In this document: piece by piece, positions 2,076 to 21,932 of the stretch | Layout: every line of letters starts with the position of its first letter | How positions within the stretch are numbered: position 1 is the first letter of the stretch | IMG/VR virus record: IMGVR_UViG_3300010158_000301 | Location: 1-24,930 of that record | Direction: 5' to 3' (one strand) | Source: a virus | Length of the DNA: 24,930 nt | Notes under the pieces: model-generated | What the model saw: only the letters and a program-made list of their open reading frames with translations | Told to the model about the DNA's origin: nothing | Database searches by the model: none | Made by a program: the position numbers and the translations under genes

Positions 2076-2528
2076 ATGTGGTATGCTAAGGTAACCAGTG
2101 ATCTTGGGAACATACCCGCTTTCATTGAATATTATGAAAACGAAATCGAAGAAGCCAGGCGTGACATTTCAGTCAAAGGCAATGTTGAGAAAAACATTGC
2201 CGCTTTGCCTGGCATCACCGAACAACGATTTAATCAACTTCAAGAGATCGAAGCAGTTTTAAATTATCTTAACATTCAAATTAGATTGATTAGACGTAAG
2301 CATTTCCAAAAATACTTGGAACATTATGCTCGTGCTCTTAGTAGTCGAGATGCTGAAAAATACGTCGACGGCGAGCCCGAAGTTGTTGACTACGAAACAA
2401 TCATCAATGAAGTAGCACTACTGCGTAATAAGTGGTTGGGTGTAATGAAGGGCATCGATAGTAAGCAATGGCAACTTAGTAATTTAGTTAAACTTAAAGT
2501 TGCTGGAATGGAAGATTTCAGTATCTAA
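2076..2528 (+). CDS. uvsY: UvsY-like recombination mediator
   Basis: Probable UvsY, the mediator that loads UvsX onto gp32-covered single-stranded DNA. The 150 aa compare with 137 in T4 UvsY. The basic helical centre contains RLIRRKHFQKYLEHYARAL (about residues 92-110). A segment ending in NKWLGVMKGIDSKQWQLSNL can be aligned by eye with the T4 UvsY C-terminus (YWGILLDFCSGALDAIKSRGF), keeping the Trp-x-Gly/Trp-Gly core and the late Arg/Lys plus Gly-Met pattern. Position two genes after uvsX in one operon supports this. The ribosome site AAGG overlaps the stop of the upstream gene. Its 3' end overlaps the convergent epimerase gene by 11 bases. The assignment is by pattern and context, not by search. 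Confidence 0.7.
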   Translation: MWYAKVTSDLGNIPAFIEYYENEIEEARRDISVKGNVEKNIAALPGITEQRFNQLQEIEAVLNYLNIQIRLIRRKHFQKYLEHYARALSSRDAEKYVDGEPEVVDYETIINEVALLRNKWLGVMKGIDSKQWQLSNLVKLKVAGMEDFSI

Positions 2529-3333
2529 GAAATCCTAACGGTAATCCCATCTTGTTTGTGTTATAACTATAGAATCTTGTAAAATCACCCGTATAATTGA
2601 ATCCTTCTGGATCATCCACGATGATATTTGTATTGCTCATAGTTATAGCATTAAACATTGCTGCCATTTCGCTTAACTTGAGTTTATCTCTATAAACTAT
2701 ATTCATGTCATGATGCTTACATTCGCCATTCATGATAATATCGATGATCGGTGGTAAATCTTCGAGATTTACAAAGTCAAAGAATCTATCTGCGTAGATA
2801 TGATAATTTTGTCTAGCATAAGTTTGAATTTTCTTAAAGAAACGCTTACTGCTTTCGGTGTAATGAAAGACCCCGAACAATCTCAAGTTATAGAAGTTTT
2901 CGTATTGTCGCATATCTTTACTGATTTGATTCTTTACAAAGCCATATGTGTACTTTGGTTCTCTTTCAAAGATTAGATCCTCATGGACCATCATGATATC
3001 TTGATCAGTATCAAACTCGTTGCCACTACCAAAATTAATTAATCTCTTGAACCTGTGTCTGTTGGCAACAATGTTGTCCCACATTCTAAGATTGTCCTTG
3101 ATAATCATGTCGCTATATGACTGTTTAAGTTCATATAGATTCTCTCGGCCAACAAGCGCAGTGTGGATAACTAGATCAAAATAACGGCTATTAAAAAAAG
3201 CATTAACAGCAACTGGATCTAATAGATCTAATTTATCTCTTGAACATTCGAATACTTGATGTCCTACTTCTCTAAAATAAGCAGACAAATAACTTCCAAT
3301 GAACCCATTAGAACCTGTGATCATAATACGCAT
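2518..3333 (-). CDS. NAD(P)-dependent sugar epimerase/reductase (extended SDR)
   Basis: Nucleotide-sugar epimerase, dehydratase or reductase of the extended short-chain dehydrogenase family, 271 aa. The N-terminal Rossmann motif is GSNGFIG (residues 7-13, GxxGxxG). DKLDLLDP at 33-40 resembles the second-strand segment of RmlD/GDP-fucose-synthase-like enzymes. The catalytic set is visible: Ser in NFGSGNEFD (S103) and Tyr130-x3-Lys134 in YGFVK. FDLVIHTAL at 52-60 is the usual strand-4 segment. The C-terminal half is the variable substrate domain, so the sugar cannot be named; GDP-fucose synthase or dTDP-rhamnose reductase are the nearest models. It is transcribed with the next minus-strand gene, overlapping it by 13 bases, and faces the UDP-galactopyranose mutase unit. 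This is a host-surface or glycan function carried by the phage. Confidence 0.88.
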   Translation of the reverse strand: MRIMITGSNGFIGSYLSAYFREVGHQVFECSRDKLDLLDPVAVNAFFNSRYFDLVIHTALVGRENLYELKQSYSDMIIKDNLRMWDNIVANRHRFKRLINFGSGNEFDTDQDIMMVHEDLIFEREPKYTYGFVKNQISKDMRQYENFYNLRLFGVFHYTESSKRFFKKIQTYARQNYHIYADRFFDFVNLEDLPPIIDIIMNGECKHHDMNIVYRDKLKLSEMAAMFNAITMSNTNIIVDDPEGFNYTGDFTRFYSYNTNKMGLPLGFLRY

Positions 3334-4166
3334 GAGTTAATCCAATCATTGCCCCAGTTATAACATTGTTTGCCTTCTCCATTGGGATCTATTAGAGCAG
3401 GTCTCTTGTTCAGATATTCTTTTAGCAAACTGCGATTTTTGCTAGTTGTACCTATTTCTTTGAGTGATAAAACTTCTTTAAAAGAAGGATTATGATGTGC
3501 TTCACTTTGATATATTTCTAAGAATGGTCTAATGCGTAGATGTCCATTCATCTTCATATAGATGCCAATCATACGTTCACATAAGAATCCTTTATAGTTC
3601 AAACTCATGTTAGTACGATAATCTGCACAGGTATTCAATTTCTCCAGCCATTCACCTTCAAACTTATCCATGACATCAACAAACTGTTTTAAGAAAGATA
3701 AGAGTCCATCCCAGAATTTCTTATTGCCCACAAAGTAATTTCCCACGAGATAATGATTCATTCCTTCCGGTTGCTTCAACAGCGACGGATCTAAGCCCAT
3801 GTCTTTAAATATCTTTTCGGCAAGTTCTAGAATCAATGGAAAGCAATGGTCTCCGTGTTCCCATACATTCCAATATTTTACTATCTCTTGTGGGTATGGA
3901 TTAAATGTATAGACATCGTAAGTCAAATCCAGATTGATGATGTCAACAATCTGTTGAGCAGAAACACCTGGTATCCTACTGCGCCATTTCCAACTGAAAT
4001 GCCCCCAGAGATCCTCGTTGGTCTTCTGTGCTTCTTCGTATATCCTCGTGTAGATGTAATACTCATGAAGATTGACGACAGGGTTGGCAGTATTATCAAA
4101 TGGGGTAAATTCTGAATCTAGATAAATTTTTTGTTCATCTTTATAATATGCTTGAAATATTTTCAT
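3321..4166 (-). CDS. Unknown protein in glycan island, possibly glycosyltransferase-like
   Basis: The protein has 281 aa and no motif I can name with confidence. It is soluble and rich in aromatic residues. Segments LWGHFSWKWRSRIPGV (about 53-68), DVYTFNPYP (about 84-92), NHYLVGNYFVGNKKFW (about 143-158) and a late CERMIGIYMKMNG recall the layout of small capsule or LPS glycosyltransferase-related families, in which a late Glu-Arg-hydrophobic helix is common. That is a weak resemblance only. It is the first gene of a two-gene minus-strand operon with the sugar epimerase, with a 13-base overlap, and is divergent from UDP-galactopyranose mutase. Context therefore points to sugar transfer or polysaccharide modification. 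The start has an AGAAG sequence just upstream on the minus strand. Confidence 0.8.
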   Translation of the reverse strand: MKIFQAYYKDEQKIYLDSEFTPFDNTANPVVNLHEYYIYTRIYEEAQKTNEDLWGHFSWKWRSRIPGVSAQQIVDIINLDLTYDVYTFNPYPQEIVKYWNVWEHGDHCFPLILELAEKIFKDMGLDPSLLKQPEGMNHYLVGNYFVGNKKFWDGLLSFLKQFVDVMDKFEGEWLEKLNTCADYRTNMSLNYKGFLCERMIGIYMKMNGHLRIRPFLEIYQSEAHHNPSFKEVLSLKEIGTTSKNRSLLKEYLNKRPALIDPNGEGKQCYNWGNDWINSCVL

Positions 4167-4209
4167 CTTCTATACTTATTAATGTTATAATTAGTTATAG
4201 AGGATCCAG
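4167..4209. promoter_or_regulatory. Divergent AT-rich promoter region of the glycan island
   Basis: This 43-base gap separates the minus-strand operon from UDP-galactopyranose mutase. On the plus strand a perfect TATAAT (4186-4191) lies 18 bases before the ATG, leaving a short leader with an AGAGGA ribosome site. No good -35 box stands at the right distance. The minus strand also has TATAAC-like boxes, so transcription probably leaves in both directions. Confidence 0.4.
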
Positions 4210-5361
4210 ATGCAAGAATCAATAAATGATTGCGACATAGTAGTAGTAGGAGCAGGTATATTTGGATCTGTTATTGCTGAACAATGCAGCAGAGATGGAC
4301 TTAAAGTTTTAGTTATCGAATCACGTAATCATATCGGCGGCAACTGCTATACTGAAGATGATTCAAATACTGGTATTAATATACATAGATATGGTCCTCA
4401 TATATTCCATACTAGCGATGAACGAGTATGGCGTTATATCAATCAGTTTACTGAATTCAACAGTTATAGACATCAATGTATGAGTCGTGTAGGCAAGAAG
4501 ACTTATTCTATGCCAATCAATCTTGCTACAATTAATCAATACTTTAAAAAGAATTGGTCTCCAACACAGGCAAAAAAGTTCTTTGAGATTTACGCAAAAG
4601 CATATCCTGATCCCAAAAACTTTGAAGAACAAGCAATGGCCCTGATGGGTAATGACTTATACAGAATGTTATTCCGTGAATATACAATCAAGCAATGGAA
4701 CAGAGATCCTAAGGATTTGCCTGCTAGTGTAGCCAGAAGATTACCAGTTAGATACAACTACAATACTAGATATTATAATGATCTTTGGGAAGGCATACCT
4801 AATATGGGATATACACCTATTTTTCAAAAGATGTTGAATCATATTAATATCGAAGTAATGCTGAATATAGATTTCTTCGAAGTTAGACATATGATACCAT
4901 CAAATAAACTCATTGTATATAGTGGTCCAATTGACAGATACTTCGATTATAAGCATGGTATTCTAAATTGGCGTACTTGCGATTTTGAATTTAAGACTTT
5001 TGATATGGAAGACTATCAGGGTGTTACACAGATTAATTACCCAAAGTTAGATATTCCGTATACCAGAACTATCGAGTTTAAACATTTCCATCCTGAGCGT
5101 AATTATACTAAAGATCACACTGTTGTGAGTTTTGAATATAGCAGAGCAGCAGGAATAAATGACATGCCTTACTATCCTGTAAATACAGATGAAGATAGAT
5201 TAAGGTATTCGATGTATCATATCGAATCAAAGCAATTATCAAATACAATCATTGGAGGCAGGCTTGGTCAATATATGTACTATGACATGCATCAAGTGAT
5301 CGGTGCTGCTTTATCAACTTACGAAAAGAGAATTAAAAATGTTTACAGTAATCAATCCTGA
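4210..5361 (+). CDS. glf: UDP-galactopyranose mutase
   Basis: Flavoenzyme that converts UDP-galactopyranose to UDP-galactofuranose, the donor for galactofuranose in O-antigens and capsules. The 383 aa match bacterial Glf. FAD-binding GAGIFGS is at residues 14-20 after a hydrophobic strand (DIVVVGAG). IESRNHIGGNCY at 36-47 and HRYGPHIFHTSDERVW at 59-74 are hallmark Glf segments. The C-terminus has GGRLGQYMYYDMHQVI from residue 349, with the conserved flavin-contacting Arg. The AGAGGA ribosome site supports the ATG. The 3' end overlaps the methyltransferase start by 23 bases, so the two are coupled. Such a gene is not a core T4-like function; with the epimerase and glycosyltransferase-like genes it suggests the phage remodels host surface glycan or decorates virions. 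Annotation is firm, purpose inferred. Confidence 0.93.
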   Translation: MQESINDCDIVVVGAGIFGSVIAEQCSRDGLKVLVIESRNHIGGNCYTEDDSNTGINIHRYGPHIFHTSDERVWRYINQFTEFNSYRHQCMSRVGKKTYSMPINLATINQYFKKNWSPTQAKKFFEIYAKAYPDPKNFEEQAMALMGNDLYRMLFREYTIKQWNRDPKDLPASVARRLPVRYNYNTRYYNDLWEGIPNMGYTPIFQKMLNHINIEVMLNIDFFEVRHMIPSNKLIVYSGPIDRYFDYKHGILNWRTCDFEFKTFDMEDYQGVTQINYPKLDIPYTRTIEFKHFHPERNYTKDHTVVSFEYSRAAGINDMPYYPVNTDEDRLRYSMYHIESKQLSNTIIGGRLGQYMYYDMHQVIGAALSTYEKRIKNVYSNQS

Positions 5362-6091
5362 GCAGAGCCATTGGCATGCTGTTGAAACTCTAACTGCATT
5401 GAATCGATATCAAGATTTTATGGATAACATTAAAATTGTAGCAGATATGGGCTGCGGTATTGGACTAGATGCAGCATGGTGGGGTAGATTAACTAAGGAC
5501 GATGGGACATCTAGAAATATACAAGTTAATGCTATAGATCGCAAATTAGAATGGCATGCATTATCTAGAAATGATAACATAAATTATATCGAAGCAGATT
5601 TTTCAACATCTGGATTAGAACCTAACAGTCATGACTTAGTATGGGCACATAATAGTCTACAATATAGTCTAAGTCCAATCGGTACATTGATACATTGGCA
5701 CAGTATACTAAAAACAGATGGTATGTTATTGGTAACCGTTCCATTTAATTTCAAGATTTACAATAATAAAGATATGCTCAATATTAATAGTACCTATACG
5801 AATGGGTGTTATTTTAATTGGACAATGGGGAATTTAATAATGACTTTGGTAGGCTCAGGCTTTGATTGTAGAAATGGGCATTTCAAGATTGATAAAGTTA
5901 ACAATTGGATTCAGGCTGCGGTATATAAATTACCCCAAGAACCCGACCCATATATGAATTGGTATGATATGTGTGATCGTAAACTGTTACCTTTATCAAT
6001 TGAAAACAGCATTATGAAGAATGGAAACTTTGAAGACGTAGATATAGTAGTAGAATGGATTGATCGAACACAATATATGCTAACAGTTTAA
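5339..6091 (+). CDS. Class I SAM-dependent methyltransferase
   Basis: Putative S-adenosylmethionine methyltransferase, 250 aa from the ATG at 5339. A frame extension to 5303 exists but lies wholly within glf. Motif I is VADMGCGIGLD at residues 34-44, the acidic end of strand 2 is in VNAIDRKLEW, motif II/III is the EADFSTSGLEPNSHDLVWAHNSLQYS stretch (cut here into IEADFS and HDLVWAHNSLQY), and motif post-II is HSILKTDGMLLVTVPF. These are the usual order of a UbiE/COQ5-like fold. The substrate is unknown; coupling to glf by a 23-base overlap suggests a sugar or a glycan precursor rather than DNA, and no target-recognition domain is visible. It is the last gene of the glycan island before the outer-membrane gene. 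Confidence 0.85.
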   Translation: MFTVINPEQSHWHAVETLTALNRYQDFMDNIKIVADMGCGIGLDAAWWGRLTKDDGTSRNIQVNAIDRKLEWHALSRNDNINYIEADFSTSGLEPNSHDLVWAHNSLQYSLSPIGTLIHWHSILKTDGMLLVTVPFNFKIYNNKDMLNINSTYTNGCYFNWTMGNLIMTLVGSGFDCRNGHFKIDKVNNWIQAAVYKLPQEPDPYMNWYDMCDRKLLPLSIENSIMKNGNFEDVDIVVEWIDRTQYMLTV

Positions 6092-6112
6092 AAATAAAAT
6101 TGTTGATTTTAC

Positions 6113-6150
6113 TTGACTTTCGAACTAGGTAAGTTTATATTAGATAAATA
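6113..6150 (+). promoter_or_regulatory. Sigma70 promoter plus late-type motif before beta-barrel gene
   Basis: TTGACT (6113-6118), a 17-base spacer and TATATT (6136-6141) form a near-consensus sigma70 promoter. Directly after it is ATAAATA (6144-6150), the T4-type late promoter core seen at three other sites in the window. The beta-barrel gene may therefore be read both early by host polymerase and late. The transcript would carry a leader of about 100 bases (to 6249) with no gene and no obvious riboswitch; it ends in a GGAAAGAG ribosome site. Confidence 0.65.
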
Positions 6151-6249
6151 ATAGACGGTTGTTGTGTGCATCAAAAAACGTAGCACAGTCTATTTTATAC
6201 AACCCAGCTGATACAATAGTGTGTCGGTGCAGAACAAAAGGAAAGAGAA

Positions 6250-6822
6250 ATGAAGAAACTTATTACAGCATTGTTTGCCCTAGTGGCAGGCGTATCAGTA
6301 GCAGCCGCTGCCGATCTACCATCCAAGAGTGCAGCCGCTGCTCCAGCAGTTTCAACAAGTGCTTTTAACCTAAGTGGCTGGTACGCAGGTGGTTATGTCG
6401 GCGGAAACTTCGACGATACCAACAAGTTCAAGTACGACAACACTCCTAAGGTTTTTGGTGGTGTTGCTGGCTATCAGTGGAACAAGTACCTACGCACTGA
6501 AGCAACTTTAGACTATAATACCAAGGCAAAGCCAACTACTACTAAGACTGGCGAAACTGCTTTTGCCAACGCAGTAGTAAGTTACCCAGTATTTGGAGTA
6601 ACACCATACATCCTAGCAGGTGTTGGATATGGTTGGGGTTCATGGGATAAGGTCACTGTTACAAACAAGGATCGCACCCTTTACAACGTAGGTGGTGGTG
6701 TTCGTTATGACATCACTAAGGCTTTTGAAATTGACGGGCGTTATCGTTACATCGACGGTCTAACCGGCAAGAAGTATGATAACAATCATGTTGTTACACT
6801 TGGTGTAAACTACAAGTTCTAA
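6250..6822 (+). CDS. Outer-membrane beta-barrel protein, opacity-porin type
   Basis: The 190-aa protein has a clear Sec signal peptide: MKKLITALFALVAGVSVAAAADL, with probable cleavage after AAA near residue 20. The mature part starts with an Ala/Ser-rich linker, then NLSGWYAGGYVGGNF (about 40-54), alternating strands, and ends in TLGVNYKF, the C-terminal aromatic BAM signature of outer-membrane barrels. Size and pattern fit an eight-stranded OmpA/opacity-type barrel. The closest style is that of alphaproteobacterial opacity porins (inference from memory). It has its own sigma70 promoter and a terminator, which is the layout of a moron gene. Its codons look richer in G+C than the glycan genes before it. 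Possible roles are receptor masking against superinfection, replacement of a host porin, or membrane alteration; none is shown. Confidence 0.88.
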   Translation: MKKLITALFALVAGVSVAAAADLPSKSAAAAPAVSTSAFNLSGWYAGGYVGGNFDDTNKFKYDNTPKVFGGVAGYQWNKYLRTEATLDYNTKAKPTTTKTGETAFANAVVSYPVFGVTPYILAGVGYGWGSWDKVTVTNKDRTLYNVGGGVRYDITKAFEIDGRYRYIDGLTGKKYDNNHVVTLGVNYKF

Positions 6823-6835
6823 TCTGAACTTAGTG

Positions 6836-6867
6836 AAAAGGTGCTGCTTATCGGTAGCACCTTTTTT
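6836..6867 (+). terminator. Rho-independent terminator after beta-barrel gene
   Basis: Stem AAAAGGTGCT (6836-6845) pairs with AGCACCTTTT (6856-6865). Two further inner pairs (G-T, C-G) leave a 6-base loop, and the T run (6862-6867) follows directly. An outer GTG/CAC extension also exists. It lies 14 bases after the stop codon. Confidence 0.9.
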
Positions 6868-6879
6868 CACGACTTTTAT

Positions 6880-6907
6880 TTGACTTTGTTTTAGATTCTG
6901 TTATATT
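6880..6907 (+). promoter_or_regulatory. Sigma70-like promoter, TTGACT-N16-TATATT
   Basis: TTGACT (6880-6885) and TATATT (6902-6907) with a 16-base spacer stand just after the terminator and before the GTG gene at 6932. The sequence around the -35 box (TTTTATTTGACTTT) is nearly the same as that of the promoter at 6113 (TTTTACTTGACTTT), so the beta-barrel gene is bracketed by two similar promoters. Confidence 0.65.
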
Positions 6908-6931: not shown

Positions 6932-7183
6932 GTGAGAACTAGCAGTGAAATTGTCGAAGATCTTATTGATTCGTTAGAGAAAATGATCGACGCTCAGGAT
7001 GACAAATGGCAAGAAGAAAAGTATGCTAATTATCGAGAAGCAAATAAGATTCATGATGAACGACTAGTTCCTGCCAAAGATAATTTTAAAAAACATTTAG
7101 ACGATTATATCGATAGACGTATTGAAACATATTGCATCAAGCATATGATTACCAGGACTACTTTCGTAGGAGAAACTGAATGA
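6932..7183 (+). CDS. Small charged hypothetical protein
   Basis: The protein has 83 aa and I do not recognise it. It is almost entirely charged and probably helical or coiled (IVEDLIDSLEKMIDAQDDKW, then KDNFKKHLDDYIDRRIETYC). No membrane segment is seen. Translation starts at GTG 6932, supported by GGAG 8 bases upstream and by the TTGACT-N16-TATATT promoter. The stop overlaps the next start as ATGA, so it is coupled to the membrane protein that follows. The two-gene unit precedes tRNA-Ala. Function unknown. Confidence 0.75.
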   Translation: MRTSSEIVEDLIDSLEKMIDAQDDKWQEEKYANYREANKIHDERLVPAKDNFKKHLDDYIDRRIETYCIKHMITRTTFVGETE

Positions 7184-7485
7184 AATTTGTCACCGTAATG
7201 GATATGTGGCTGCTGATCTGTAATATCGGCTTGCTGGGTTGTCTTATCTATGTTGTGCGTCAGTTGATTGCGTTGGCTAAAGATTTTCAGGCATGGAAAT
7301 ATTCAGAAGTTGTTGACAAAGAGATGAAGTATGTTATACAATTGATTAAAGATGAAAGAGATAATCTTGAAAGCAGCATGACTACTGCTGATATTGATAT
7401 CAAAATGGAATTCTGTGATGATATCATCAATCAAATTGAACGCCGTAGAACAAAGAATATTATTGCGGCAGCTCAAGTAAAGTGA
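7180..7485 (+). CDS. Small single-pass membrane protein
   Basis: The 101-aa protein has one probable transmembrane helix at residues 9-28 (MWLLICNIGLLGCLIYVVRQ). A long charged, probably coiled cytoplasmic tail follows (KDERDNLESSMTTADIDIK and a basic ERRRTK near the end). The start codon overlaps the stop of the previous gene (ATGA), which predicts translational coupling. It ends 13 bases before tRNA-Ala. This is a typical phage accessory membrane protein of unknown role; the size and topology also fit a small inhibitor or a lysis-control protein, but nothing specific shows it. Confidence 0.75.
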   Translation: MKFVTVMDMWLLICNIGLLGCLIYVVRQLIALAKDFQAWKYSEVVDKEMKYVIQLIKDERDNLESSMTTADIDIKMEFCDDIINQIERRRTKNIIAAAQVK

Positions 7486-7498
7486 TATATAAAGCATA

Positions 7499-7574
7499 GG
7501 GGGATTAGCTCAGTTGGGAGAGCGTCTGATTTGCATTCAGAAGGTCATCGGTTCGATCCCGGTATCCTCCACCA
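7499..7574 (+). tRNA. tRNA-Ala (anticodon UGC), with encoded CCA
   Basis: A complete 76-base cloverleaf can be folded by hand. Acceptor 7499-7505 pairs with 7564-7570; the D arm is GCTC/GAGC (7508-7511, 7520-7523). The anticodon stem is TCTGA/TCAGA (7525-7529, 7537-7541) with loop TTTGCAT, anticodon TGC at 7532-7534. The T arm is ATCGG/CCGGT with TTCGATC loop. Discriminator A is 7571 and CCA is 7572-7574. The third acceptor pair is G-T, the G3:U70 identity element of alanine tRNAs. It decodes GCA and, by wobble, other Ala codons. The encoded CCA avoids the need for host CCA addition. Confidence 0.96.
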
Positions 7575-10143: not shown

Positions 10144-10171
10144 TTGACAGTATCTTGTTTGAGTGTATCAT
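10144..10171 (+). promoter_or_regulatory. Sigma70-like promoter, TTGACA-N16-TATCAT
   Basis: A perfect TTGACA (10144-10149), a 16-base spacer and TATCAT (10166-10171) stand back to back with the late-type motif of the minus-strand fibre gene. It should transcribe the small-gene module starting at 10194. Confidence 0.7.
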
Positions 10172-10193
10172 AAGCATTATGAGAGAGAAACAA

Positions 10194-10388
10194 ATGTACA
10201 CAGAACTTACCGAAGAACGTGTTATGTATCTGGTTGATCTTGCTACAGAATATGCTATCTCACGAAATTTAGATGTGGATTGTTATTTAGAATCCATGCT
10301 AAATCCCAACAAGATTGGGGATCGCGATGCAGGTCAAATCGTTGAACTGCTGATCAAATACCACAGAGAATGGACGGATCGTAAATGA
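10194..10388 (+). CDS. Small hypothetical protein, early-type module
   Basis: The 64-aa protein starts at the ATG at 10194, chosen because GAGAGA sits 8 bases upstream and the promoter at 10144 would begin the transcript close by. A longer frame from 10155 would begin upstream of the transcript start. The sequence is mostly helical and acidic at the start (TELTEERVMYLVDLATEYAI), ending with a basic WTDRK. It overlaps the next gene (ATGA at 10385-10388). I do not recognise it. As the first gene of a sigma70-driven module it is probably expressed early. Confidence 0.75.
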   Translation: MYTELTEERVMYLVDLATEYAISRNLDVDCYLESMLNPNKIGDRDAGQIVELLIKYHREWTDRK

Positions 10389-10591
10389 AAAACTGTGTGA
10401 ATTATGCAACGGCACTGGAAACAGTCGGTCTCAACGCTCGTGATTATCCACAAGAAAAGTTTGTGGAATCTCACCCTGTTTGGGTAGTTCTTCCCAAGGT
10501 AGAATCTATCGTTTATGGGCATGAAGGATGGGAAATCACGAAGGTTTCCAATGATTTATACTCCATTGAAATCATTGAGAAATTTGGGTAA
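10385..10591 (+). CDS. Small hypothetical protein, early-type module
   Basis: The 68-aa protein is unrecognised. It is coupled to the upstream gene by an ATGA overlap. The second half (VWVVLPKVESIVYGHEGWEI) looks like alternating beta strands, so a small beta-rich fold is likely. There is no membrane segment or cysteine pair; one Cys is at residue 4. It ends 14 bases before the repeated promoter region at 10605. Confidence 0.72.
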   Translation: MKNCVNYATALETVGLNARDYPQEKFVESHPVWVVLPKVESIVYGHEGWEITKVSNDLYSIEIIEKFG

Positions 10592-10604
10592 AATTGTAAG
10601 TAAA

Positions 10605-10629
10605 TTTGTTACAAAAATATCAGTTGACG
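10605..10629 (+). repeat. 25-bp direct repeat, copy 1 (promoter upstream element)
   Basis: The 25 bases from TTTGTTACAAA to CAGTTGACG are identical to 10971-10995. The repeat contains a short palindrome-like TTTGTTACAAA and ends in the -35 box of a promoter. Both copies are followed by TATTATGTAT and GGGAATGAGGAG at similar distances, so a whole promoter and ribosome-site cassette was duplicated. Confidence 0.9.
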
Positions 10630-10651
10630 CTTATCCCATACGTGCTATTAT
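10624..10651 (+). promoter_or_regulatory. Sigma70-like promoter, TTGACG-N16-TATTAT (copy 1)
   Basis: TTGACG (10624-10629) and TATTAT (10646-10651) are separated by 16 bases. The transcript should start close to 10658 and carry AGGAG just before the ATG at 10678. The inverted TTTGTTACAAA directly upstream could be an operator or activator site. Confidence 0.75.
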
Positions 10652-10677
10652 GTATTATAGGGAATGAGGAGAGCAGC

Positions 10678-10965
10678 ATGTCTTACGTCGTTTACAATGT
10701 TGGAACCACCCAAACTGTTAATGAGAAGCGTTGGGGTCGTGAGACTTTCAAAACTGAAGCGGCTGCTAAGGCTGCTCGCACGAGGATGATCAAGAAGTGG
10801 AAGTATGAGTCTACTCAACTTGAGATTGCTGAAGTTGCTTTTTATACACAGAACATTGCTGCTACTGTTACACGCACCAATTTGATGACGGGTAATACCT
10901 ACCAAGAAAGCGTCAATACGCCCCTGTGCTGCTCGCCCTCCAGTGAGACATATTGGTCAATGTAA
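10678..10965 (+). CDS. Small basic hypothetical protein
   Basis: The 95-aa protein starts at the ATG at 10678, which follows AGGAGAG; a longer frame from 10606 would run through the promoter. The N-terminal half is basic and helical (KRWGRETFKTEAAAKAARTR, then MIKKWKYES); the second half looks beta-rich with many Thr and ends in CCSPSSETYWSM with a Cys pair. It could bind nucleic acid given the basic first half, but no named motif is seen. It stands alone between the two duplicated promoter cassettes. Confidence 0.75.
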   Translation: MSYVVYNVGTTQTVNEKRWGRETFKTEAAAKAARTRMIKKWKYESTQLEIAEVAFYTQNIAATVTRTNLMTGNTYQESVNTPLCCSPSSETYWSM

Positions 10966-10970
10966 CTATA

Positions 10971-10995
10971 TTTGTTACAAAAATATCAGTTGACG
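10971..10995 (+). repeat. 25-bp direct repeat, copy 2 (promoter upstream element)
   Basis: Exact copy of 10605-10629, starting 6 bases after the stop codon of the previous gene and ending in the -35 box TTGACG. The distance between the copies is 366 bases, about one gene plus its promoter. Confidence 0.9.
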
Positions 10996-11017
10996 TATAC
11001 TAGTTTGAGCGTATTAT
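10990..11017 (+). promoter_or_regulatory. Sigma70-like promoter, TTGACG-N16-TATTAT (copy 2)
   Basis: TTGACG (10990-10995), a 16-base spacer and TATTAT (11012-11017). The spacer sequence differs from copy 1, while the -35, upstream element, -10 and GGGAATGAGGAG leader are kept, which suggests selection on those parts. Confidence 0.75.
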
Positions 11018-11044
11018 GTATACATAGGGAATGAGGAGCCAAAC

Positions 11045-11248
11045 ATGTCCAATGTTATCCGAGTTGACTTCCGCAAAGGTAAGATGAGCGAGCGTGAACA
11101 GTACCTCAATCATCTTGCTGTGGAACTGGACGAGATGGACTTCCAGGACTTTGTGGAAGCAGTAAACGATCCTGATGGCGCAGTATACCGGGATCTCGAC
11201 GAAGACATGCAGATTTTGGTCTGCGAATTCTTTGCCAAAGCAGGTTGA
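11045..11248 (+). CDS. Small acidic hypothetical protein
   Basis: The 67-aa protein is driven by the second repeated promoter, with a GAGGAG ribosome site before the ATG. A short basic N-terminus (VIRVDFRKGKMSER) is followed by a strongly acidic region (ELDEMDFQDFVEAVNDPDG, then DLDEDMQ). It is predicted mostly helical with no cysteine pairs beyond one Cys. Not recognised. Its stop codon lies inside the -35 box (TTGACA at 11245) of the promoter for the AAA+ ATPase gene. Confidence 0.75.
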   Translation: MSNVIRVDFRKGKMSEREQYLNHLAVELDEMDFQDFVEAVNDPDGAVYRDLDEDMQILVCEFFAKAG

Positions 11249-11303: not shown

Positions 11304-12299
11304 ATGGCTAATGTGCTTATTAAGTCGGGAACGTATCGCAATGCTCCCGTCGTTAACATGTCCTTCCCTCTGGTTAAGGACTATCAAGAAGGTGCTAAGG
11401 GAGGTTACGTGACTGTAGATGGGACATCAATGGGTCGTGATCGCATCCGCATTACAGTGGACCCTACAGAATATGAGATTGAGGGTGAGGTTGCTACTCC
11501 AATCGTTGCTGCTAAGGTAGAGGAAAGCGACGAAGCAGTCATGGAGCGTATCGGCGAACGCTTCGACATTATGGATTCAATGACGCAGGCAGTTGTTGAC
11601 GGTGTTGTGCGTTCAATGATCGTTGTTGGTCCCCCAGGTGTTGGCAAGAGTTTTAATGTTGTCAAGAAACTCGAAGAAGCCAACCTCTTTAACATGATCG
11701 GTGGCGACATCCGTTTCGAAGTGGTCAAAGGTGCTACTACTGCGCTGGGTCTTTATGCTAAGCTCTACGAGTATAGCAAGGAAGGCGATGTGCTTGTGTT
11801 TGACGATTGCGATAGCATTTTGATGGACGAACTTAGTCTCAACATCCTCAAGGCTGCGCTGGACACTAATAAGAAGCGCACCATCCACTGGAACAGTGAC
11901 AGTAAGTTGCTTCAGCGTGAGGGCATCCCCAACAAGTTTGACTTCAAAGGTGCTTGCATCTTTATTACTAACATTAAGTTTGAGAATGTTCGCAGTGCTA
12001 AGTTGCGTGACCATCTCAGTGCGCTTGAGTCACGTAGCCACTACATTGACCTTAGCATGAACACTATGCGTGATAAGATGTTGCGTATCAAACAGATTGC
12101 TCGTAGCGGAGAACTGTTTAAGGGTTATAACTTCCAGAATGGTGAAGAGCAAGAGATCTTGAACTTCATGGAGGAGTGCCAAGGTCGACTGCGTGAGATG
12201 AGCTTGCGTTGCGCTGTTAAACTTGCTGATCTGCGTAAGACCATGCCAATGAACTGGAAGCGTACCGCTGAGGTTACGCTGATGAAGAACGCTTTTTAA
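11304..12299 (+). CDS. AAA+ ATPase
   Basis: The 331-aa protein has a single AAA+ module. Walker A is GPPGVGKS at residues 109-116, Walker B VLVFDDCD at 163-170, sensor-1-like CIFITN at 218-223, and a likely arginine-finger region LRDHLSALESRS at 234-245. The first 90 residues are a separate beta-rich domain that I do not recognise, and residues 260-331 are a helical lid ending in NWKRTAEVTLMKNAF. It is not gp44: the gp44 layout and partners are missing. It may act as a remodeller or loader in replication, or on a host complex. GAGG is 6 bases before the ATG and a strong promoter precedes it. The gene is richer in G+C than its neighbours, a possible sign of separate origin. Small genes follow in the same unit. 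Confidence 0.88.
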   Translation: MANVLIKSGTYRNAPVVNMSFPLVKDYQEGAKGGYVTVDGTSMGRDRIRITVDPTEYEIEGEVATPIVAAKVEESDEAVMERIGERFDIMDSMTQAVVDGVVRSMIVVGPPGVGKSFNVVKKLEEANLFNMIGGDIRFEVVKGATTALGLYAKLYEYSKEGDVLVFDDCDSILMDELSLNILKAALDTNKKRTIHWNSDSKLLQREGIPNKFDFKGACIFITNIKFENVRSAKLRDHLSALESRSHYIDLSMNTMRDKMLRIKQIARSGELFKGYNFQNGEEQEILNFMEECQGRLREMSLRCAVKLADLRKTMPMNWKRTAEVTLMKNAF

Positions 12300-13267: not shown

Positions 13268-14710
13268 ATGCCAAGTTGTAAAATAGTTATTTCGGACGAA
13301 GTTAACTGCAAGATTGAGGGATTAGAAGTTGATGCACGGCGCAGACTTGTAGCAAAGTTTAAATTCGAACTGCCATATGCTCGTCATCTTCCTGCTGTGC
13401 GTTTAGGAAGATGGGACGGCAAAGTTGCTTACTTCCAATTAAGTGGTAGCACTTATGTTAATCTATTGCCCGATATTATCGAGTGGTTGACCGAACGTAA
13501 TTATGTAATTGACCTTGACGATAAGAGACCTCCTGCTATTCAATTTAATTTTGTTGAAACAACCGAAGATAGTTTTAGTAATGTATGCTGGCCAAAAGGT
13601 CATCCTGCTGCTGGGCAACCTATAATGCTGCGTGACTATCAAGTCGATATCATCAATAATTTCCTTGCTAATCCACAGTGCCTACAGGAGGTGGCTACAG
13701 GTGCAGGTAAGACAATCATGACCGCCGCGCTTAGTTACAAATGCCAAGAGTATGGTCGTACATTGGTAATCGTTCCTAATAAAAGCCTTGTTACCCAAAC
13801 AGAAGAAGACTATATCAACATGGGATTGGATGTTGGTGTATATTTTGGGGACAAGAAGGAACTAGGCAAGACTCATACTATCTGCACTTGGCAAAGCCTA
13901 AACAATATCCTTAAAGGTGATAAGGAATTGGCAGCGGACTTCATCGACAATGTTGTTGCTGTCATTGTTGACGAGGTACATATGGCTAAAGCAGAAGTAC
14001 TTAAAGATATTCTCACGGATTACCTTGCTCGTGTTCCAATTCGCTGGGGATTGACTGGAACTATACCTAAGGAAGACTTTGCTTTTGTTGCACTTAAGAT
14101 TGCACTAGGTGAGGTAATCAATAAACTCAGTGCCAGTGAATTGCAAGACCGAGGGGTGTTGGCAAACTGTCACGTGAACATTATTCAAACTGAAGAGCAT
14201 AGTGAGTTTACAGATTATCAAAAAGAACTAAAATATCTAACTACTAATCCTGAAAGATTAGATTACATTGCAAAATTAACAAGTGAGATTATTAAAACTG
14301 GTAATACATTGATACTAGTGGATCGCATTAGTGCAGGGGAAGAACTTGCTGCTAGGATCTCAAACAGTATCTTTATCTCCGGCGATATGAAGACCGCAGA
14401 TCGCAAAGGACATTATGATGAGATCGCCGAAACAATGGACAGAACTATTATTGCTACCTACGGCGTTGCTGCTGTGGGGATCAATATTCCTCGTATCTTT
14501 AATCTTGTACTCATTGAGCCTGGCAAGTCTTTTGTTCGTGTCATACAGTCTATCGGTCGTGGTATTCGCAAGGCACAAGATAAAGACCATGTTCAGATCT
14601 GGGATGTGACTGGTAATTGTAAATTCGCCAAACGTCACCTTACTAAGAGAAAACAATTCTATAAGGAAGCGAATTATCCATTCACTATAGATAAAATAAG
14701 TTATAAGTAA
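13268..14710 (+). CDS. uvsW: UvsW, superfamily 2 DNA/RNA helicase
   Basis: T4-type UvsW/RecG-like helicase that unwinds R-loops and branched DNA, and switches replication from origin use to recombination-dependent initiation. The 480 aa match the family (T4 UvsW about 500). Residues 1-110 are the UvsW N-terminal substrate domain, with RLGRWDGKVAYF at 45-56. Q/Walker A ATGAGKT at 143-149, LVIVPNKSLV at 166-175, DEVH at 235-238, LTGT at 262-265, motif V region ATYGVAAVGINIPR at 396-409, and motif VI QSIGRGIRKA at 427-436. Start codon: the only ATG in a sequence with a promoter -10 directly upstream. The gene after it follows within 14 bases. Confidence 0.94.
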   Translation: MPSCKIVISDEVNCKIEGLEVDARRRLVAKFKFELPYARHLPAVRLGRWDGKVAYFQLSGSTYVNLLPDIIEWLTERNYVIDLDDKRPPAIQFNFVETTEDSFSNVCWPKGHPAAGQPIMLRDYQVDIINNFLANPQCLQEVATGAGKTIMTAALSYKCQEYGRTLVIVPNKSLVTQTEEDYINMGLDVGVYFGDKKELGKTHTICTWQSLNNILKGDKELAADFIDNVVAVIVDEVHMAKAEVLKDILTDYLARVPIRWGLTGTIPKEDFAFVALKIALGEVINKLSASELQDRGVLANCHVNIIQTEEHSEFTDYQKELKYLTTNPERLDYIAKLTSEIIKTGNTLILVDRISAGEELAARISNSIFISGDMKTADRKGHYDEIAETMDRTIIATYGVAAVGINIPRIFNLVLIEPGKSFVRVIQSIGRGIRKAQDKDHVQIWDVTGNCKFAKRHLTKRKQFYKEANYPFTIDKISYK

Positions 14711-15713: not shown

Positions 15714-15973
15714 CAGTTAGGAACTTTTATACCAACGATCCAAGTGTTTTAACAACTAGTATCTCAGACACATATGGCGGTCAGGAACTTATGATCAATA
15801 TCAGTTATGAATTTCAAGAATTGTTAAATTGGTGGAGACAATGGGGACCGATATTTAAAGATGGTAATGCTACTGTGCAGGATGCATTAGTACAAGCAAG
15901 AGTACTACATGAGTTGGCTAAAGAACAAAATGGGCAACCTAAAACTTACAGTTGGACCGAAACAACACTATGA
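15710..15973 (+). CDS. Small hypothetical protein, replication operon
   Basis: The 87-aa protein is unrecognised. ATGA overlaps at both ends (15710-15713 with the gp62-like gene, 15970-15973 with the radical SAM gene) show strict coupling. N-terminal TVRNFYTNDPSVLTTSISDT is polar; the middle ISYEFQELLNWWRQWGPIFK has a helical Trp-rich segment, and QDALVQARVLHELAKEQNG is a probable helix. No membrane helix. It could be a small partner of a neighbouring enzyme. Confidence 0.75.
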   Translation: MTVRNFYTNDPSVLTTSISDTYGGQELMINISYEFQELLNWWRQWGPIFKDGNATVQDALVQARVLHELAKEQNGQPKTYSWTETTL

Positions 15974-17028
15974 TTCGATTAGAGGATATAACTTGGATAC
16001 ATGCTGAATTGAGCACATTATGTCAGGCTGCTTGTCCTCTGTGTGCTAGAAATGATTATGGATTCAAAACAAGAACAGATTTTCCCAAGTGCGAATTATC
16101 CATCGAAGATTGGGCTAAGATCTTTGACAATGCCACTTGTAATCCAAATAGATTTTATTTCAATGGCAACTTCGGTGATCCTATAATTGCCAAAGATGTG
16201 GTTGAGATAACTGAATATTGTTTCAATCGGTGGCCAAGAATGAAAATTCAGATATCCACTAATGGTGGGATACGGTCCGAAGAATGGTGGACTGAATTTG
16301 CTACAAAGTTTAGTAAAAATCAATTAGTTGTTCAATTTTGTATCGATGGTCTCGAAGACACTAATCAAATATATAGAATAAATGTTCCATATCAAAAAGC
16401 AATGGCAAATGCTAAAGCATTCATTGCAGGCGGCGGAAATGCTCAGTGGCGGATGATAAAGTTTAAACATAACGAACATCAATTCGAAGAAGCACAGCGT
16501 AGAAGTAAGGAAATTGGGTTTGCTGCATTTTTAGAAACAGATGATGGTAGAAACAGGGGGTTTGCATTTACGAATGAAACCGACGGTTATTGGATTTTGC
16601 CATCTGAAGGAGCAGGGTCAGATCAATCTCCTCAACTTATCAGACCAAAATTGTTTGAAAGTAAACCACCTAAGATTAAGGACGATGGATTGGTTCCTAT
16701 GCTTGAAAGCAAGTGGCTTGCTAACAATAAAAACATTGATTGTTTTGTTAAGAAAGAAAAGTCTTTATACGTCGCTGCAAATGGGGAAATATATCCCTGC
16801 TGTTTTATCGGATTCTTTCCAAAAGAATATAAAGGTTGGTACACTAATTTCAATACAGTAGTGGGTGATATTGAAAACAATGCCATCACACATGGACTAG
16901 AAAAGTCTGTGGAATACTTTAATAAGGTGGAAGAATCTTGGAGCAAAGAATCTGTCGCAGATGGCGTGATAACAACTTGTCTAAACTGTTCTAAAGAATG
17001 GCGTTCAACAGTGAAAAAATCTAACTGA
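15970..17028 (+). CDS. Radical SAM enzyme with SPASM-like C-terminus
   Basis: The 352-aa protein from the ATG at 15970 (ATGA overlap with the previous gene). The [4Fe-4S] motif CQAACPLC is at residues 18-25 (Cys 18, 22, 25; CxxxCxxC), followed by CARNDYG-like sequence. NGNFGDPI near residue 62 replaces the usual GGEP segment, and QISTNGG near 95 fits the next strand. Late cysteines occur in VAANGEIYPCCFIGFF and a terminal TTCLNCSKEW, in the style of a SPASM/twitch domain that holds auxiliary clusters. The usual jobs are peptide or protein modification; here the substrate is unknown. A second such enzyme lies at 20747-21877. Chromosomal location in a replication operon is notable. Confidence 0.85.
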   Translation: MIRLEDITWIHAELSTLCQAACPLCARNDYGFKTRTDFPKCELSIEDWAKIFDNATCNPNRFYFNGNFGDPIIAKDVVEITEYCFNRWPRMKIQISTNGGIRSEEWWTEFATKFSKNQLVVQFCIDGLEDTNQIYRINVPYQKAMANAKAFIAGGGNAQWRMIKFKHNEHQFEEAQRRSKEIGFAAFLETDDGRNRGFAFTNETDGYWILPSEGAGSDQSPQLIRPKLFESKPPKIKDDGLVPMLESKWLANNKNIDCFVKKEKSLYVAANGEIYPCCFIGFFPKEYKGWYTNFNTVVGDIENNAITHGLEKSVEYFNKVEESWSKESVADGVITTCLNCSKEWRSTVKKSN

Positions 17029-19758: not shown

Positions 19759-20775
19759 ATGTTCATCCAGCAGGAAATACTATCAGCATGGACTAGAGGT
19801 CGTAAGACTAAAAGCACTGCCACTGGCTGGATCAGTGCCAATGCTGTCTGTTGTCACCATAATGGGCAGAATACCGACCAGCGTGGACGTGGGGGTCTGC
19901 TACCCACGCAAGAAAGTGGGATCAGTTACCATTGTTTTAACTGCGGGTTTACTGCCAACTGGCAACCCGGGCGTCGCATCACTCTTAAGATGCGTAAACT
20001 ATTGGCCTGGATGGGTGTAGGTGAAGATGAAATTCGTCGTCTCAGTTTATTTGCATTGGGACAACTTGATAACAGCATGGATGTCAAGAAGGAAGTAATC
20101 CGAGAACTTCCAAAATTTGAATGTAAGGAAATCTGTCCGGGGCATGATCTATTAGATTGGTTTATCATGCAGGATATTAGCCAGGAAGATTTAGATCAAG
20201 CAATGCTTATTCTTGATTATGTTGATTCGAGAGGACTTGGAGATAAGATAGAATACTTCAAGTGGCACAATGATAAGACAACACATGTATATAACCGTGT
20301 ATTAGTTCCATTTGCATGGTTAGGGCAACCCATGGGATATAGCGGGCGCAGCATTGTACCAACTAAACGAAAATACTACACAGAACATCCTCCACATTTT
20401 GTATTCAATTATGATAGGCAGCAGCAGGATGCTAAGTTTTGCTTAGTAGTCGAAGGTGTACTCGATGCGATCGCAGTAGATGGGCTATCAATCTTAACGA
20501 ACGAATGCAACGAATCGCAAGCACATATCGTTGATAGCCTGAATCGTGAGGTTATTGTTGTTCCAGATCGTGATAAAGCAGGCATGGAATTAGTTCGACA
20601 TGCAATGGAATATGGATGGAATGTTGCATTTCCAGATTGGGGTCCAAACATTAAAGATTGCTCGGACGCTGTACAAAAATATGGTCAACTGTTTACAATG
20701 CGTAGTGTTCTAAACAGTGTTGAAACTAACAATCTTAAAATTCAACTCATGATGAAGCGTTGGCTTGATAACTAA
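19759..20775 (+). CDS. DNA primase, gp61-like
   Basis: T4 gp61/DnaG-type primase that makes RNA primers for lagging-strand synthesis with the gp41 helicase, 338 aa (T4 gp61 is 342). The N-terminal zinc domain has CCHHNGQN at 31-38 and HCFNCGF at 58-64, giving likely Cys/His ligands. The TOPRIM core has VVEGVLDAIAVDG at 230-242 (catalytic Glu232) and VVPDRDKAGM at 267-276 (D270, D272). GYSGRSIVPTKRKYY at 193-207 is the RNA polymerase-fold basic segment before it. Downstream, after one convergent gene, is the helicase. Its 3' end overlaps the minus-strand radical SAM gene by 29 bases. The promoter is discussed separately. Confidence 0.92.
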   Translation: MFIQQEILSAWTRGRKTKSTATGWISANAVCCHHNGQNTDQRGRGGLLPTQESGISYHCFNCGFTANWQPGRRITLKMRKLLAWMGVGEDEIRRLSLFALGQLDNSMDVKKEVIRELPKFECKEICPGHDLLDWFIMQDISQEDLDQAMLILDYVDSRGLGDKIEYFKWHNDKTTHVYNRVLVPFAWLGQPMGYSGRSIVPTKRKYYTEHPPHFVFNYDRQQQDAKFCLVVEGVLDAIAVDGLSILTNECNESQAHIVDSLNREVIVVPDRDKAGMELVRHAMEYGWNVAFPDWGPNIKDCSDAVQKYGQLFTMRSVLNSVETNNLKIQLMMKRWLDN

Positions 20776-21877
20776 CATACTTCTTAAAGATTTTATCAAA
20801 TGAATCTCTGTTGTCTGCTTTTGGAGCACATAGTCCACAGAAGCAAGATTTCTTAGCACAGGTAATAACAGGCATATCTTTTCCCATCATATCTCTTAGA
20901 TTCTCTAAAATTAAATCTGCCTGATCTACTGTGCCAATTGGACCAACTGTTCCATCAAACTTCATTCGACAGTCTTTGTTATGAAAAACTTCTCTGGAAG
21001 TCTGTCTGATATAGAGGAAGAACCAATTAACACTACAACTCCAGTTGGTAAAGTTATTTTTGATAAAAAAGTTACGTTCCTTAAAATTACCATCTGTGCA
21101 TATTTGTCGTCCGCCGCAACATGCCCTACCAACATTAGTTAAATTAACATCGTGATTGCTATTAATTTTAATTTCTTCAGTATTAAAGGATTTTTTATTA
21201 TATAAGTCATTGAACCAATTTATCTGTTGGGGAGAATACATGTGAGTGTCATTGACCCTGTCTAATTGTCTTGGCAAGAATTCAATATTATTTTCTTTAC
21301 AGAAATCGATCATTTGGATAGAATCATCAAACCTAGTAGGATTCATCAATACAATGACTTTAACTCTTTTCTTGTTTGAAATGAGTGTAAGGATGTTTTG
21401 TCTGACTTGTGATTTTTGTTTTGGACTTGCTTCGCTGTGATAACTCACTGTCCAATAATCTATTAGATCTTTTAACTTATTAATAAGTGTTTTACCAGCA
21501 ACCAAGTTGGTAGTGGTTTGTATAGTTAGTACCCAATCATCTTTAAACTTTTCATATTTTTCTCTGATTGCTTCGTATACATTTATAATGTCAGGGTGGA
21601 ATATACTTTCTCCCCCATAGACATTTAGAATTACTTCTCTTGCCCATTTTGGTTTGTTCTGCATATAGATGTTGACATACTCAAACATAAAGTCTATAGT
21701 TTTTAAACATTCTTCGAGTGGGGGGTGTCTTAATTTATTATCATGCCATTCTGGACCGCAATAACTACAATCCAAATTACAGCGTAGTGTAATCTCCCAA
21801 TCTAGTAGAAAACTAATTTTATTAGCGGGATCGATTGCAGGCTCGACTGTTCTTAGCATGTGGTACTTATAAGTCAT
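20747..21877 (-). CDS. Radical SAM enzyme, minus strand
   Basis: The 376-aa protein starts at the ATG 21875-21877. A longer frame reaches 21958, but its first part is a hydrophobic translation of the AT-rich promoter zone and overlaps the helicase gene. The Fe-S motif CNLDCSYCG has Cys 33, 37 and 40 (CxxxCxxC). Later come VYGGESIF (the GGE segment), TIQTTTNLV, and late Cys groups GRACCGGRQIC and KKSCFCGLC, which suggest a SPASM-type auxiliary cluster. Likely substrate is a peptide or protein. No partner peptide was found nearby. It converges with the primase (29-base overlap) and lies between primase and helicase, splitting two genes that work together. Confidence 0.88.
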   Translation of the reverse strand: MTYKYHMLRTVEPAIDPANKISFLLDWEITLRCNLDCSYCGPEWHDNKLRHPPLEECLKTIDFMFEYVNIYMQNKPKWAREVILNVYGGESIFHPDIINVYEAIREKYEKFKDDWVLTIQTTTNLVAGKTLINKLKDLIDYWTVSYHSEASPKQKSQVRQNILTLISNKKRVKVIVLMNPTRFDDSIQMIDFCKENNIEFLPRQLDRVNDTHMYSPQQINWFNDLYNKKSFNTEEIKINSNHDVNLTNVGRACCGGRQICTDGNFKERNFFIKNNFTNWSCSVNWFFLYIRQTSREVFHNKDCRMKFDGTVGPIGTVDQADLILENLRDMMGKDMPVITCAKKSCFCGLCAPKADNRDSFDKIFKKYVSYQANASS

Positions 21878-21896
21878 AAAAATATAGTAATATATA

Positions 21897-21926
21897 ATGA
21901 CATTAAATGCAAGATAAGTGTATAAT
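21897..21926 (+). promoter_or_regulatory. Sigma70-like promoter of helicase gene, predicted leaderless
   Basis: ATGACA (21897-21902), an 18-base spacer and perfect TATAAT (21921-21926). The ATG at 21933 starts 6 bases after the -10 box. The -35 box is close to the start of the divergent radical SAM gene. Confidence 0.6.
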
Positions 21927-21932
21927 AAGAGC

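Follow-up and report, generated by a model that had tools for sequence, protein, structure and literature searches.

A gene for an outer-membrane beta-barrel protein, carried on a 24,930-nt (24.9-kb) viral fragment (IMG/VR record IMGVR_UViG_3300010158_000301; this whole stretch of DNA is termed the window), appears from comparison with related phages to have resided in phages for long at a constant site and not to be a fresh insertion. The window phage is T4-like and infects freshwater bacteria, and the gene is preceded by overlapping early and late promoters and by a leader that contains a candidate pseudoknot. The overall reading, to which an even chance is given, is that of a resident gene of a T4-like clade, expressed early as well as late from an mRNA stabilised by its leader, whose exported barrel alters the surface of the infected cell and most likely blocks the adsorption of competitors.

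UvsX is encoded in the window, as identified by profile search. From sequence and gene order, the ORF at 13268-14710 is taken to be UvsW, and those at 19759 and 21918 are taken to be primase and helicase. The barrel gene lies between a variable cassette (2518-6091), encoding an epimerase, an unknown 281-aa protein, a UDP-galactopyranose mutase and a methyltransferase, and the small conserved ORF o6932 (6932-7183; GTG start). The latter is followed by the 101-aa ORF o7180 (7180-7485), conserved in relatives and used as a marker of the site, and by a tRNA-Ala(TGC) gene (7499-7574) that is likewise conserved downstream in relatives. The barrel gene, its signals and these three downstream features are all on the plus strand. 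Elsewhere in the window, a radical SAM gene (20747-21958) gives a weak match to a viperin-family antiviral model (5e-7, far below the cut-off), and a second one (15952-17028) matches SPASM-type maturases. A run of small unknown ORFs at 10155-11248 precedes an AAA ATPase-like gene (11304-12299).

The hosts of the clade are probably Alphaproteobacteria, judging from the ADLP-like start of the mature barrel protein, the alphaproteobacterial hosts of cultured relatives, and the occurrence, next to sister genes, of permuted tmRNAs with ANDN-type tags. In L184, L194, L201, L210 and others, tRNA genes stand immediately upstream of the barrel gene, in many cases a permuted tmRNA together with tRNA-Arg(TCT).

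The barrel protein and its family

The gene (6250-6822) encodes a 190-aa protein with a signal peptide at about residues 1-20, a conserved DLPSK motif and a predicted 8-strand barrel at residues 43-190. The original prediction of a signal peptide and a C-terminal Phe agrees with the protein, which has an N-terminal helix at residues 2-16 and ends in Phe190. The Pfam family PF13505 (OMP_b-brl) is matched with E=2.9e-17 and 63.8 bits, against a gathering threshold of 28.7, over residues 8-190 and profile positions 2-175 of 175, and the attributes of this family, a signal peptide and a transmembrane barrel with a terminal aromatic residue, are both found. An AlphaFold2 model built from 17 phage homologues predicts eight strands (43-54, 67-76, 81-93, 98-111, 117-130, 141-154, 159-170, and 180-189), with pLDDT values mostly about 90 in the strands. 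Together with the conserved signals described below, the family match and the model bear out the view that the phage encodes an outer-membrane barrel served by a promoter and a terminator of its own, and the protein would be exported and assembled in the outer membrane of the host.

Structure comparison of the model gave OmpA, OprF, Ail, and NspA as the nearest solved folds in the PDB, with TM-scores of 0.52/0.63 against the Ail crystal structure 3qra. The description of the protein as porin-like does not hold up well. General porins form water-filled barrels of 16 or more strands, and 8-strand barrels do not belong to them; with eight strands predicted, a porin-like character is unlikely. The opacity porins (PF02462) scored 14.1 bits, under the curated cut-off of 21, and over residues 142-190 only. 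The Ail/Lom family (lambda Lom, Ail, Rck, and OmpX) is characterized by 8 strands and 4 loops (PMC5727353). Eight strands with four exposed loops are also seen in the predicted barrel, which resembles this family as a small phage-carried outer-membrane barrel with Ail among its top structural matches. However, no Ail/Lom profile in Pfam matches it, Ail is missing from the matches of a sequence search of the PDB, and the carrier here is a lytic T4-like phage and not a prophage.

Cellular PF13505/COG3637 barrels, including the alphaproteobacterial Omp25/31-like proteins with ADLP after the signal peptide, share the family match, the eight strands and the ADLP-like mature N-terminus. In contrast to them, the phage proteins group separately and are short (190 aa, with short loops), whereas the cellular ORFs mostly have about 210-290 aa and are at most 41% identical. 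The genes annotated 'outer membrane protein' in three jumbo phages, Ochrobactrum vB_OspM_OC (p344), Sinorhizobium Phosso and Agrobacterium Atu_ph07, are homologous (31-39% identical over the matched part) and fall on the same phage-only side of the tree, but they have another gene neighbourhood and no matching leader. Of the cultured phages with such a gene, Ochrobactrum OC and Sinorhizobium Phosso are the closest. The main texts of the papers on OC and Atu_ph07 gave no mention of an outer-membrane protein, and a search of a limited collection of papers found no functional study of the barrel family; barrels of this kind have been annotated in numerous uncultured phages, and many BFVD entries carry the annotation outer membrane protein beta-barrel. 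Phage-encoded outer-membrane barrels such as Lom are already known, and the present family is a new, well-defined member of them. In L172 (1558-2283) and L173 (5657-6418), a second barrel-like ORF directly follows the barrel gene; the pair have the DLPSK mature N-terminus in common and diverged barrels, forming a tandem pair.

A host donor clade, with top matches to host opacity porins, had been anticipated. In a search of one genome per species for 84,980 bacterial and archaeal species, no donor-like match appeared, the best reaching 28% identity across most of the sequence, or 37-41% within the N-terminus alone. In a maximum-likelihood tree, 41 phage rows (including the three cultured alphaproteobacterial jumbo phages) and 22 cellular rows lie on opposite sides of a branch with support of 92/87. 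With limited cellular sampling and long branches in this tree, a single origin of the phage barrels is favoured, not proven.

Early and late expression signals

The gene is preceded by an early sigma70-type promoter, TTGACT-N17-TATATT, at 6113-6141, whose TTGAYTT and -10 region are retained by all ten close relatives despite divergence of the spacer. The late motif GATAAATA (6143-6150), which includes ATAAATA at 6144-6150, stands immediately 3' of the early -10, so that the early promoter overlaps a late promoter of the NATAAATA type. The same 7-mer precedes tail tube, gp32, and fibre genes, and within 60 nt upstream of 359 ORFs of related phages it occurs 43 times in sense and 7 times in antisense orientation. 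This excess on the sense strand upholds the suggestion of a late motif and indicates that ATAAATA is the late promoter of the clade, in keeping with the T4-type NATAAATA, which is also the late promoter of T4-like cyanophages (PMC2984593). Among the ten close relatives, the segment TAGATAAATAATAGACGGTTGTT differs at a single base, in L006. The gp32 genes of relatives have the same early/late overlap (TTGACT-N17-TATAAATA), and in RB49 and S-PM2 such overlapping promoters are thought to serve middle-mode genes (PMC2984593). For the barrel gene, the overlap would keep expression on throughout infection. In the gp32 genes of uncultured T4-like phages (L142, L146, L148, and L051-L129), overlapping early/late promoters were seen with strongly structured leaders that contain repeated AGGCA motifs, which are candidate autoregulatory sites in dozens of phages.

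An intrinsic terminator with an 8-bp stem, a 10-nt loop and T6 follows the gene at 6838-6867 (stem 6838-6845/6856-6863, the last two T overlapping the stem end as counted). It was missed by the terminator scanner because its loop exceeds the limit of 8 nt; it is nevertheless real, for ten relatives keep the stem, and L008 shows a compensated G-C to A-T change within it. A second promoter, TTGACT-N16-TATATT, is located after it at 6880-6907. Both promoters have the predicted sequences. As consensus matches alone are at chance level in the region (55 found against 50.4 expected), the evidence for the two promoters is their conservation in relatives.

The barrel gene ranks first of 34 genes in the window for codon bias, with 15 of its 16 Lys codons being AAG, and the ATPase-like gene at 11304-12299 ranks second. 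In the relative G001 the barrel gene ranks second of 79, close to gp32 and the ATPase gene. For the comparison of codon use, gp32 and tail-tube genes served as references, since a PF07068 search of the close relatives yielded no capsid gene. With dN/dS of about 0.10-0.24 between relatives, the gene is evidently under purifying selection, and its synonymous distance to L003 is 0.26, compared with 0.59-2.4 or saturation in the neighbouring genes measured. High expression accounts for the codon bias and the low synonymous distance more readily than a recent foreign origin does, since the phage's own genes, such as gp32, have the same bias; the barrel gene is apparently tuned to very high expression throughout infection. 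The bias could in part reflect the base composition of a donor and not expression.

Possible roles of the barrel

From its predicted location alone, the barrel most likely remodels the surface of the infected cell. Several phage-made envelope proteins block receptors, namely T5 Llp, Cor, and the porin of phage PA-2. By analogy with these proteins, and considering the presumed continuous expression and the nearby surface-sugar genes, receptor masking or superinfection exclusion is plausible, and the barrel would most likely serve to keep competing phages from adsorbing while the infection proceeds. Superinfection exclusion is thus the likeliest single purpose, held with somewhat less than even confidence. 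A study of Cor is cited in PMC11893012. The neighbouring sugar genes fit a surface role but vary independently of the barrel gene.

A competing reading, rather unlikely although it deserves weight, is that the barrel maintains the integrity or the nutrition of the infected cell, through outer-membrane stability or a nutrient or permeability role, and does not exclude phages. The OmpA/NspA-like fold agrees with such a role, and high continuous expression would make sense if the barrel took the place of a major structural protein of the outer membrane whose mRNA the host loses in infection. However, at 190 aa the protein has no periplasmic OmpA domain and hence no peptidoglycan anchor, and an 8-strand barrel is not a general porin.

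A structured leader with a candidate pseudoknot

About 100 nt separate the promoter from the ribosome site, and the ends of this leader are near-invariant whereas its middle is variable. Two helices can be drawn at its start. In S1, AATAGAC (6150-6156) pairs with GTCTATT (6188-6194) in 11/11 leaders, with the innermost pair lost in 4; in S2, GGTTGT (6157-6162) pairs with ACAACC (6199-6204) and crosses S1. With positions set by hand, 96% of the S1 and S2 cells are paired across the 11 leaders, whereas sliding the partners by 1-3 bases leaves 34-45% paired. Double compensatory changes affect five pairs in total, at four S1 positions (L171 and L209) and one S2 position (G-C to A-T in L209), and all of them come from these two divergent relatives; S2 is almost invariant and offers this one informative covariation. 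Automatic consensus folding missed S1 because MAFFT misaligned L006 and L010. A crossing pair arises by chance in 6-20% of shuffles of single leaders, so the case for the pseudoknot rests on consistency and covariation. Within the candidate pseudoknot, a variable hairpin (6164-6187) diverges in sequence and is mostly kept as a hairpin. It is followed by hairpin P3 (6207-6228), which folds in close relatives and L171 with a compensatory change at columns 94/115, and by the ribosome-binding region AAAAGGAAAG (6236-6245), which is predicted to be unpaired.

A pattern scan of 2.9 million viral contigs returned 13 stretches, 12 of them on contigs already known to carry the barrel gene; the remaining one, in L240, is a chance match in the coding sequence of an unrelated Mu-like prophage. 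A known riboswitch or RNA family was considered and rejected, as no Rfam family matches the leader; the Rfam search gave only the tRNA-Ala and a sub-threshold chance match to a snoRNA. The leader is a candidate new RNA element.

Two known leaders offer models for its function. The ompA mRNA is stabilised by a 5'-terminal stem-loop (PMC2777011). The E. coli ompA 5' UTR is similar in being a structured 5' leader on the mRNA of an abundant outer-membrane protein, and in the barrel leader the crossing of S1 and S2, P3 and the unpaired A-rich ribosome site may stabilise the mRNA in the same manner. To our knowledge, crossing helices have not been described for ompA. The second model is the T4 gene 32 mRNA, in which the helices of a leader pseudoknot cross each other ahead of an A-rich ribosome site (PMC3014915). 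The barrel leader of this T4-like phage has the same layout, with crossing helices that have covariation support at the hand-set positions. It differs in that it precedes another gene, has another sequence and contains an extra internal hairpin. The leader may also add control, for example feedback as in the gene 32 pseudoknot.

The leader could also be regulatory instead of stabilising. By analogy with T4 gene 32, it would act as a switch that limits barrel synthesis, bound for example by gp32 or another phage protein. Both the resemblance to the gene 32 operator layout (PMC3014915) and the segments ACGGUUGUU, invariant, and ACAACCCAGCUG, near-invariant, are in line with this idea, but the strong codon bias points to high output and the gp32 leaders of these phages share no evident sequence with it, which leaves the idea unlikely. 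More speculative by a shade is the proposal that the leader represents a novel type of phage mRNA element. In it, a conserved pseudoknot, located outside gene 32, would sense a phage protein or the capacity for outer-membrane assembly and would set the dose of a phage-made surface barrel early and late. A DNA element, such as a replication origin or recombination site, with incidental RNA pairing is an improbable explanation for the conserved upstream block: the block does begin within the promoter and stays near-invariant over 23 bases, but the compensatory changes in S1 and S2 and the crossing topology favour RNA, and the block is found only before the barrel gene. Stabilisation of the mRNA remains the preferred function of the leader.

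Site history

The original prediction was that of a recently inserted, self-contained gene bracketed by two near-identical promoters. Part of this stands. The only exact matches of TTTTANTTGACTTT in the window are the 14-mers at 6107 and 6874, and these two -35 contexts differ from each other by one base. The similarity is, however, not conserved. In L003 the upstream context is AAAACCGTTGACTTT and the downstream one TTTTATTTGACATT, and in the aligned flanks the extended similarity is confined to the window genome and its near-identical copy L002. Duplication of the promoter was therefore rejected. What the relatives retain after the terminator, in nine of ten, is TTTGAC and TTATA. In a more distant lineage, a second promoter again follows the T-run of the terminator (TTTTTTATTGACTT), and the gp32 genes of relatives show the same juxtaposition of terminator and promoter; the pairing of promoters is thus an old and ordinary arrangement. 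Moreover, L006 has an extra ORF exactly between the barrel terminator and the o6932 promoter, which assigns the second promoter to o6932, and it would simply be the promoter of the next gene. The ORF inserted in L006 (6645-7511) looks glycosyltransferase-like by eye, without an NCBIfam match, and marks an apparent insertion slot.

Ten IMG/VR contigs carry barrels that are 78-100% identical, and in all ten the gene lies upstream of o6932/o7180; the upstream neighbour, where readable, is the methyltransferase gene, except in L006, which has a different one. These relatives were found with the barrel gene itself. A search with the flanking o7180 recovered the same ten and, at more than 45% identity, no relative without the barrel gene. 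Flanking-gene and family-profile searches added carriers at 60% (L171/L174) and 38-45% identity (L028, L036, L038, L040, L043, L048, L049, L050, L178 and others), in which the gene again adjoins o7180 or o6932, often after the uvsX-o1849-o2076 block. In L040, L050, and L195 it directly follows o2076 and the epimerase-UGM-methyltransferase cassette is missing, which identifies the sugar cassette as the movable part; this cassette is wholly or partly missing in relatives that retain the barrel gene. What varies between relatives is the flanking sugar/methyltransferase cassette and the insert after the terminator. Larger sugar cassettes occupy the place of the 2518-6091 cassette in L063 and L075.

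The empty site with a single promoter that had been expected in related phages was not encountered, as no clean one was found in the clade. L063, L066, and L075 keep uvsX-o1849-o2076 and their contigs end inside a large sugar cassette, and L025-L027 have o6932-o7180 without the barrel gene in an unrelated neighbourhood. The gene is absent from 80 more distant uvsX loci, which places the gain or loss of the whole module at a deeper point in the tree. Recombination among relatives also exchanges alleles of the gene: L010 and L011 have 90% of the barrel gene in common but 83% of o7180, while the window and L011 share 95% of o7180 but 80% of the barrel gene. This exchange and the absence from distant uvsX relatives constitute residual support for mobility. 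Of the attributes of a moron, the gene thus has its own promoter and terminator but not an absence at the same site in close relatives, being present in 10/10 of them and in distant ones. The pattern named beforehand as speaking against insertion, namely the same site in most relatives, phage-only homologues and no similarity between the flanks, is largely the one observed.

The recent capture of a host gene, inserted beside a promoter or with duplication of it, is accordingly very improbable, for the self-contained unit, the 14-mers one base apart, the allele exchange and the 80 loci without the gene are outweighed by a site constant throughout the clade down to the 38-45% identical carriers, a promoter similarity that relatives do not share, a phage-only clade of homologues, a codon bias like that of the phage's own gp32 and ATPase genes, and a sugar cassette that is itself the movable part.

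Significance

Two similar promoters that flank a gene are not necessarily the scar of an insertion. With more than 40 phage loci, a site, promoters and a testable RNA leader, the barrel family is now defined. A lytic T4-like lineage maintains, and does not briefly carry, an outer-membrane barrel, under strong selection and apparently with expression control of the grade seen for gp32. Thus, the question why lytic phages build outer-membrane proteins becomes directly testable with a defined family.
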